From: Methylopila sp. 73B
GTDB taxonomy: Bacteria > Pseudomonadota > Alphaproteobacteria > Rhizobiales > Methylopilaceae
Reading direction: 5' to 3'
Assembly (NCBI RefSeq): GCF_000526315.1
Contig: NZ_JAFV01000001.1
Span: 3,970,501 to 4,034,500 of the forward strand
Length of the DNA: 64,000 bases
The number at the start of each line of letters is the position of its first letter. Within the stretch, counting starts at the first letter, position 1. A program made the position numbers and the translations under genes. The notes under the pieces were generated by a model, which saw only the letters and a list, made by a program, of their open reading frames with translations, ran no database searches and was not told the DNA's origin. Shown in pieces: positions 14,257 through 16,210 of this stretch.

Positions 14257-15129
14257 ATGGACATCGCAAGCCTGCTTGAAGCGGCGCTTCTGGGCGTCGT
14301 CGAAGGACTGACCGAGTTCCTGCCGGTGTCCTCAACCGGGCACCTCCTGCTGCTCGGCCACTTCCTGGGCTTCGAGTCGACGGGGAAGACCTTCGAGGTG
14401 CTGATCCAGCTCGGCGCCATCCTCGCCATCCTGCTGGTCTACGCGCAGCGGCTGATCGACGTCGCCCTGCGCGTCCCGACCGACCCCGCGGCGCGGCGCT
14501 TCGTGCTCGGCGTTCTGATCGCCTTCCTGCCGGCGGCGGTGATCGGCGCGGGGCTGCACAGCTTCATCAAGAACGTCTTGTTCGAGACGCCGGCGCTGAT
14601 CTGCGTCGCGCTCATCGTCGGCGGTCTCGTGCTGCTCTGGGTCGACGCCCGCACGCCGACCCAGCACTACGAGGTGCGCGGCGTCGACGGGCCGGCTCAC
14701 GCGTGGGTCGACGGCCCGCACGACGGCGCCCGCTTCGACGACGCGATGCGCTTTCCGCTTTGGCTCTGCCTCGCGGTCGGCCTGTGCCAGTGCCTCGCGC
14801 TCATCCCCGGCGTGTCGCGCTCGGGCTCCACGATCGTCGGGGCGCTGCTGATGGGCGCGAGCAAGCGGGCGGCGGCGGAGTTCTCCTTCTTCCTCTCCAT
14901 GCCGACCATGGCGGGCGCTTTCGCCTACGACCTCTACAAGAACCGCAGCGTGCTCTCGCTCGACGACATCGGGCTGGTCGCGGTCGGCTTCGTCTGCGCC
15001 TTCCTCGTGGCGCTTATCGTGGTGCGCTACGTGCTCGACTTCATCTCGAAGCGTGGCTACGCGCCCTTCGCCTGGTGGCGGCTGATCGTAGGCTCGGCCG
15101 GCCTCGCCGGCGTTCTGGTCTACGGCTGA
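14257..15129 (+). CDS. uppP: Undecaprenyl-diphosphatase UppP (BacA)
   Basis: A 290-residue polytopic membrane enzyme that dephosphorylates undecaprenyl diphosphate, recycling the lipid carrier for peptidoglycan and polysaccharide synthesis. The catalytic blocks are [20 protein letters not shown] near residue 16 and [17 protein letters not shown] near 187. Length is slightly over the usual 265-280 because of a hydrophilic insert (about 128-162). GAGGGG lies upstream of the ATG. The pseudo-ATPase gene starts five bases after the stop, so they are likely co-transcribed. Confidence 0.96.
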
Positions 15130-15133
15130 GGCG

Positions 15134-16210
15134 ATGCCCGCGGTCACGCTCGCCGACGTCGTCAAAACCTACTCCGGGAGCGCGGTCCTGAAGGGCGCGT
15201 CCTTCGCCGTTCCGGCCGGCGCGCTGTGCGCGGTCACCGGCCCGGCCGGCGCGGGGGCCTCGACGCTGCTGCGGCTGATCGCGGGCCTCGAACGGCCGAC
15301 GAGCGGCGAGATCGCGATCGGCGAAACGCCGCTGCGCTCGTTCGGAACCGCCGTGCCCGGCCTCGCCGCGATGGTCGCTCCGGACGGTCTGAAGCCGCGC
15401 GCGAACCTCTACGCGAACATCGTCCGCGGGCTGCCCCGGTTCGGCCCCGAGGGCCGCGCCACGGAGACGCGCGCGCTGGCGCTCGCGGACGCGCTCGGTC
15501 TCGGGCCGCTGCTCGCCCGCCGCGCGCGCGACGTTTCGACGTCGGCCCGCGTTCTCGCGGCGCTGGCGCAGGCGCTCGCGCGCCGGCCGGGAGCGATCGT
15601 GATCGACGGCGCATTCGCGGCGCTCGGCGTCGAGGACCGCGCCCGCGCGGTCGGAGCTCTCCGCGCGCATCTGGCGGAGACCGGCGCCGTCGCGGTGGTC
15701 GCGGGCCGGCCCGGCGACGAGATCCTGCGCTCGGCCGACCTGCAGGTCGCGATCGACACGGGCGAGGTTCTGCAGGTCGGCGCGCCCGACGAGCTGTACC
15801 GCCGCCCGGCGGACGTCCGCGTGGCGCGGCTCACCGGACCTGCGGGCATGAACGTGCTGCCCGTGCGCGCCAACCAGACGGGGCTGTCGCTCGAGGATGG
15901 GACCTGGCTCGGGGCGGCGAGCGTGATGACGGCCAAGACCCACGGCCTGCTGGGCGTGCGGCCGGAGCGGCTGTTCCCGATCGGCGAGGGGCTGCCCCCC
16001 GAGAACGGCGCGCGGCTGCCGGTCGACGTGACCGCCGTGTCCCGGCTCGGCGCGGAGACCTGGATCGAGGGCTTTGTGGGCGGAGTCCCCGCCGCCGCGC
16101 GCTTCGGCGCGGCCGCCCCGGACGATCTCGCGCCGGGGGCTCGCCTGATCCTCGGCGCGGAACGGCGCGACCTCCACATGTTCGACGCGGCGACGGAAAC
16201 CCGCGTCTGA
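15134..16210 (+). CDS. ABC ATPase-like protein lacking catalytic motifs (MalK/UgpC type)
   Basis: A 358-residue protein with the layout of a MalK/UgpC sugar-importer ATPase: nucleotide-binding domain to about 235, then a TOBE-like regulatory domain (NVLPVRANQTGLSLEDG, LLGVRPERLFP). Nearly every ATPase motif is altered. The Walker A is GPAGAGAST with Ala at position 42 instead of Lys; the Q-loop glutamine is absent (AAMVAPDGLKP); the LSGGQ signature reads VSTSARVLAALAQAL; Walker B IVIDGAFAALG lacks the Glu; the switch His is missing (VVAGRPGDE). The frame is intact with normal composition. No permease or binding protein is nearby. Probably a non-hydrolysing scaffold or regulator. Confidence 0.85.
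   Translation: MPAVTLADVVKTYSGSAVLKGASFAVPAGALCAVTGPAGAGASTLLRLIAGLERPTSGEIAIGETPLRSFGTAVPGLAAMVAPDGLKPRANLYANIVRGLPRFGPEGRATETRALALADALGLGPLLARRARDVSTSARVLAALAQALARRPGAIVIDGAFAALGVEDRARAVGALRAHLAETGAVAVVAGRPGDEILRSADLQVAIDTGEVLQVGAPDELYRRPADVRVARLTGPAGMNVLPVRANQTGLSLEDGTWLGAASVMTAKTHGLLGVRPERLFPIGEGLPPENGARLPVDVTAVSRLGAETWIEGFVGGVPAAARFGAAAPDDLAPGARLILGAERRDLHMFDAATETRV

Follow-up and report, generated by a model that had tools for sequence, protein, structure and literature searches.

Few protein families are as abundant as the ATP-binding cassette (ABC) ATPases. Exporters of this type in which one nucleotide-binding site is degenerate yet maintained are well described; the passage on such sites in PMC7756269 gives ABCG5/G8 as an example and names a Walker A change for this transporter only. 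Orphan ATPases of the MalK type, serving several importers, are known as well (PMC7658222). The gene analyzed here lies directly behind uppP in a stretch of 64,000 nucleotides from Methylopila sp. 73B (contig NZ_JAFV01000001.1; hereafter the window) and encodes a MalK/UgpC-like protein with broken catalytic motifs. Purifying selection acts on the gene in the window and in the two relatives closest to it (together, the trio), and the strongest constraint on the protein, judged from aligned orthologues, sits in the regulatory (TOBE) region and not in the ATPase motifs, a feature that the earlier note on this DNA, made from the letters alone, had missed.

The degenerate exporter sites, as described in that passage of PMC7756269, are similar in having lost hydrolysis residues while being maintained, but they are parts of complete transporters whose partner site is active, whereas the window protein is a free-standing protein of importer type with no linked transporter. 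From UgpC it differs by the absence of a linked permease, the lost motifs and a far lower model score, and from Escherichia coli MalK (2r6g, 1q12) by the lost catalytic motifs and by having its conserved part at the beginning of the regulatory domain and not in the nucleotide-binding domain (NBD). With MsmX, found among the fold matches (6yir), it shares a MalK-family gene placed apart from permease genes; MsmX is reportedly a working ATPase (PMC5730181, PMC7658222), whereas the window protein should, by its sequence, not hydrolyse ATP. It is unusual for a protein of the MalK class to be free-standing, maintained and catalytically dead. Among the matches listed, mainly from non-subscription literature, there was neither a free-standing dead MalK-type ATPase nor a paper on this gene.

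Broken catalytic motifs in a protein of MalK/UgpC type

The window protein has the architecture of an ABC NBD followed by a TOBE/OB regulatory domain, with Pfam matches above cut-off to ABC_tran (E 6.5e-15) and TOBE_2 (E 7.7e-5). Its best family model is NCBIfam PRK11650 (UgpC, the ATPase of the sn-glycerol-3-phosphate importer), which covers residues 1-357 at 153.5 bits, well short of the curated cut-off (432). Scores are 211-300 bits for three orthologues in which most motifs survive and 515-550 for three intact UgpC-like proteins, and both outside relatives scanned (L013, L092) exceed the cut-off. In the structure model the NBD fold and a MalK-type fold over the whole length are predicted to be intact, with a full-length match to MalK structures.

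Alignment with ten ordinary UgpC/MalK-like proteins bore out the five altered motifs listed in the earlier note. The Walker A lysine position is occupied by alanine, so that the pattern GxxGxGK[ST] is not matched; the Q-loop glutamine is Ala82; VSTSA stands at the position of the LSGGQ signature; the catalytic glutamate of Walker B is Gly159 and the D-loop aspartate Gly165; and the switch histidine is Arg192, with VAGRPG in place of YVTHDQ. The claim that every catalytic motif had been removed holds for lysine, glutamine, signature, glutamate and histidine but goes too far as worded: the motifs are broken and not wholly removed, because Tyr13 of the A-loop and Asp158 of Walker B are kept. By pattern, Walker A, LSGGQ and the Walker B Asp-Glu pair are intact in 16 of 16 related proteins and paralogues, and a THD/SHD switch is present in 14 of them; judged against this set, the motif loss in the window protein exceeds chance expectation. 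Given the established roles of the lost residues, the protein would not be expected to hydrolyse ATP.

Orthologues, conservation and selection within the genus

The genus sample comprised 13 genomes (G000-G012; Methylopila/Hansschlegelia/Chenggangzhangella), of which G000 is the window's own; the records include Methylopila capsulata, Methylopila sp. Yamaguchi, M. turkensis, M. jiangsuensis, four species of Hansschlegelia, a Methylopila metagenome-assembled genome and Chenggangzhangella. Orthologues next to uppP, for which the earlier note proposed a search, were found in all 13 genomes examined, directly behind uppP and on the same strand; addB, the other neighbour it named, adjoins the gene only in the trio among the 12-kb stretches examined. 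The reading frame is open in 12 of the 13 copies, and the spacing from uppP in these unbroken copies ranges from an overlap of 4 bases to a gap of 44, as judged from predicted starts (in the window the uppP stop codon ends at 15129 and the ATG stands at 15134, leaving 4 bases). The remaining copy, in G007 (Chenggangzhangella; a single contig of 88% completeness), is frameshifted, which leaves 12 readable orthologues, window included; since uppP is frameshifted there as well, a sequencing or assembly error is likely. A record titled Chelatococcus sambhunathii (JADBEO010000005.1, G008) groups inside the genus, and its title may be a misidentification.

Searches beyond the genus gave no older orthologue, either with a model of the conserved block described below, run over 297 genomes of the order, or with a peptide scan, both of which diverged homologues could escape. 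The block model found 10 genus genomes at 113-129 bits, and its matches at E <= 1e-6 in 15 genomes outside the genus did not exceed 45.8 bits. Four of these 15 (G292, G227, G057, G036) were read, and their motifs are intact; two of the four were scanned with NCBIfam and both score as UgpC. The contig scan with two degenerate peptides returned 11 loci, all within this clade by contig. Ten genomes outside the genus, five of them from the same family, had no match to the window protein at E 1e-3 in 10 kb around uppP.

A tree of UppP and GST places five Methylopila copies (G000, G009, G011, G004, G005) in one clade and the seven other readable members in a second, each with a bootstrap of 97, and the motifs are lost in steps across these copies. 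The Q-loop glutamine is gone in all 12 readable copies, being alanine in the window and aspartate or glutamate in the nine orthologues outside the trio. The Walker A lysine is missing from the five Methylopila copies, while the other seven have both this lysine and the Walker B aspartate. The switch histidine is lost in the five Methylopila copies and in G003, and the Walker B glutamate has become glycine in the trio and aspartate in G008 and G010. Motif damage differs among the three Methylopila branches, and the NBD of the G005 copy carries a deletion. Loss of all five motifs is confined to the trio, its apparent end point; the altered motifs are thus fully shared, as the earlier note envisaged, by the two closest relatives and not by the genus at large. 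Non-hydrolysis appears to be a derived state inside the genus, because 7 of the 12 readable orthologues keep the Walker A lysine.

Mean pairwise identity was compared between nine representative orthologues (near-duplicates G009, G010 and G011 and the broken G007 excluded) and the ten ordinary relatives. In the orthologues it is lower at Walker A (0.54 vs 0.94), at the signature (0.44 vs 1.00) and over the whole NBD (0.45 vs 0.65), and higher in residues 239-280 (0.81 vs 0.34), above all in residues 239-260 (0.89 vs 0.32). Across the block region 26 of 62 alignment columns are invariant in the nine sequences, and in the loop G-x-x-S-V-M-T the G, S and T do not vary among 12 sequences and V and M hardly vary. 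The constraint acts mainly on the protein, because fourfold sites of the nine diverged orthologues are equally free inside the block (457 of 867 identical, 0.527) and outside it (2015 of 3857, 0.522). The regulatory domain opens, in the predicted structure, with strands that belong to the block. Model confidence is low in the conserved loop (residues 263-265), as might be expected for the segment 260-266 if a partner orders it.

Selection was estimated as the ratio of non-synonymous to synonymous substitution rates (dN/dS; NG86). Within the trio the ratio is 0.16-0.18 for the pseudo-ATPase gene, well away from 1, compared with 0.09-0.18 in uppP, 0.10-0.14 in addB and 0-0.02 in the gene for GST. 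Taken by itself, the NBD also shows fewer amino-acid changes than expected (binomial P 9e-6, 2e-4 and 2e-7 for three non-independent pairs). The copies of the trio are under purifying selection. Between the three Methylopila branches the pairwise ratio rises to 0.70-0.84, inflated upper values given that synonymous sites are almost saturated (identity at fourfold sites is about 0.5 along the gene); dN was therefore set against that of uppP at longer distances. It is 0.53-0.57 vs 0.11-0.16 for uppP between these branches, and on average 0.355 vs 0.153 in six genomes of the other clade. The gene appears to have passed through a period of fast change and to be constrained now in the trio. The earlier description as a maintained, non-hydrolysing homologue can be kept as to maintenance, given the low ratio in the trio and the two relatives with the same altered motifs; as to hydrolysis, complete motif loss, read from the sequences, applies to the trio only.

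Probable history and alternative explanations

On balance we consider it probable, with considerable room for doubt, that the gene encodes a maintained pseudo-ATPase of MalK/UgpC descent in which a site for partner binding, within the regulatory domain, has taken over the function. The parts that burn ATP are lost, the gene is preserved and the strictest constraint lies elsewhere, so that the product is probably a binding or control protein. In the ancestor of the genus, a copy of a UgpC/MalK-type importer ATPase would have landed behind uppP, away from any permease. The Q-loop glutamine, the residue that senses the transport channel, would have been lost first, followed by the Walker A lysine in the Methylopila clade and then by every hydrolysis motif in the window lineage. 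The protein would still be made and selected, with residues 239-280 at the start of the TOBE/OB domain as the working part that binds a partner and the dead NBD as its scaffold. The genus holds living intermediates, in which mainly Q-loop and signature are changed, the Walker A lysine is lost as well, or all hydrolysis motifs are lost; the route from enzyme to pseudo-enzyme can therefore be traced inside one genus. The finding also points to a defined site of 42 residues in a domain usually regarded as accessory.

Several observations weigh against this reading. Between the three Methylopila branches the gene has a dN 3.6-4.8 times that of uppP, a difference as compatible with relaxation as with repurposing. 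Beyond the block, the remaining C-terminal stretch (residues 281-358) is likewise better conserved in the orthologues than in the ordinary relatives (0.45 vs 0.28), so that part of the block contrast reflects a more diverged ordinary set; that set spans more genera and a more diverged C-terminal part is expected of it, while its NBD is nevertheless the better conserved one. A predicted MalK-like fold is no proof of stability. Conserved gene order could reflect common transcription only, and the UppP insert described below is not strictly conserved in sequence and is short in two genus members, whereas the block is near-invariant.

An orphan importer ATPase left without a permease might also simply drift, functionless, in the window lineage. 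Such slow decay would account for the differing motif damage and high dN/dS among the Methylopila branches, the NBD deletion in G005 and the lack of a linked permease; the frame, however, is open in all copies but one, the block stays near-invariant across the genus without synonymous constraint, and the high ratios are inflated by near-saturated sites. The low ratio in the trio and the significantly reduced number of amino-acid changes within the NBD make simple decay unlikely. Pairing through the regulatory domain with the cell's intact UgpC/MalK, as an inactive partner that lowers transport or makes it asymmetric, is an improbable alternative of much the same rank. In its favour are the MalK-type fold predicted from end to end, the presence in the same genome of an intact UgpC-like paralogue close to permease hits, and the degenerate sites of ABC exporters (PMC7756269), whereas the Q-loop glutamine is lost in every readable copy, Walker A is lost too (a change for which that passage offers ABCG5/G8 as the only exporter precedent) and the literature matches listed contain no importer example.

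It is very improbable that the protein is an active orphan ATPase like MsmX, powering distant permeases with its altered motifs. Orphan ATPases of this kind are known (PMC7658222), and seven orthologues keep the Walker A lysine and the Walker B aspartate; the window protein, in contrast, lacks lysine, glutamine, signature, glutamate and histidine, which makes hydrolysis unlikely, and no readable orthologue has the Q-loop glutamine. That the block is a signal in DNA or RNA instead of a protein site is hardly credible. Its 42 codons do contrast sharply with the fast evolution of the rest of the gene, and each trio pair shows only 2 or 3 synonymous changes there (dS 0.06-0.09 vs 0.15-0.29 for the whole gene), but these counts are small and the equal freedom of fourfold sites inside and outside the block rejects the explanation at the level of the genus.

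Candidate partners and neighbouring genes

UppP, the undecaprenyl-pyrophosphate phosphatase, an enzyme of cell-wall lipid-carrier recycling for which the pseudo-ATPase could be a cytosolic partner, is the one constant neighbour and, tentatively, the first candidate for binding the block. The tie to UppP proposed in the earlier note gains from the gene order and, suggestively, from a genus-specific insert in UppP, 22 residues long in the window and shorter in G001 and G006. In a survey of 46 genomes with a UppP match (3 of them genus members), all 40 measurable proteins among the other 43 were 18-28 residues shorter over the matched span. The insert occupies the loop equivalent to Lys140-Thr153 of E. 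coli UppP, which lies on the cytoplasmic side according to the crystal structure reported in PMC5861054. Being variable in sequence and length, it lends weak support to this partner. A doubtful extension would make the pseudo-ATPase a non-hydrolysing cytosolic adaptor of UppP that docks through the block on or near this loop and controls lipid-carrier recycling. The features are compiled in Table 1.

Table 1. Features of the pseudo-ATPase gene and of uppP, in window coordinates
Feature	Position	Strand	Description	Basis
Putative pseudo-ATPase of MalK/UgpC type	15134..16210	+	ATG start, 358 amino acids	Open reading frame call, Pfam, NCBIfam, structure model
NBD part	15134..15847	+	Residues 1-238; motifs lost, predicted fold kept	
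Degenerate Walker A	15239..15265	+	GPAGAGAST, Lys to Ala	Alignment
Degenerate Q-loop	15365..15391	+	AAMVAPDGL, Gln to Ala	Alignment
Degenerate signature	15533..15559	+	VSTSARVLA	Alignment
Walker B/D-loop	15593..15628	+	AIVIDGAFAALG; Asp retained, Glu and the Asp of the D-loop replaced	Alignment
Switch (H-loop)	15698..15715	+	VAGRPG, His lost	Alignment
Hyper-conserved block	15848..15973	+	Residues 239-280 (MNVLPVRANQTGLSLEDGT...GVRPERL), start of TOBE/OB regulatory domain	Conservation profile
Loop G-x-x-S-V-M-T	15911..15931	+	Residues 260-266, within block; candidate partner-binding loop	Alignment, model
uppP (BacA family)	14257..15129	+	4 bases upstream of pseudo-ATPase gene	Pfam, gene order
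UppP insert	14653..14718	+	22 residues, alpha5-alpha6 loop	Comparison with other UppP proteins

No permease was seen near the gene in its own genome, the closest PF00528 hits lying about 65 kb upstream and about 80 kb downstream; such distant permeases may be partners. In G009, G011, G001, G005, G004, G008 and G010 a coarse hydropathy scan, confined to open reading frames that pass a codon-composition filter, found multi-pass frames 2.6-6 kb away. In 4 of the 13 genomes ptsN-hpf-rpoN lies about 1 kb downstream in convergent orientation (G002 by Pfam; G003, G005 and G006 by the same sequence start), and ptsN was not seen in the filtered lists of the remaining genomes. Its product EIIA-Ntr, which might be a partner by analogy with MalK-EIIAGlc, was retained as no more than a lead. 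Some of the MalK residues for EIIAGlc and MalT binding presumably lie in the region equivalent to the block; a literature search on them found nothing and they were not used as evidence.

The window's own genome also encodes an intact UgpC-like paralogue (G000:C1:3827788-3828843), which is followed by two permease hits at distances of about 2 kb and about 3 kb. A second intact MalK-like ATPase, near 559849 (L098:4727-5884), has no PF00528 within about 40 kb and is flanked by an scpB-like gene and tatB/tatC-like genes, as named by eye.
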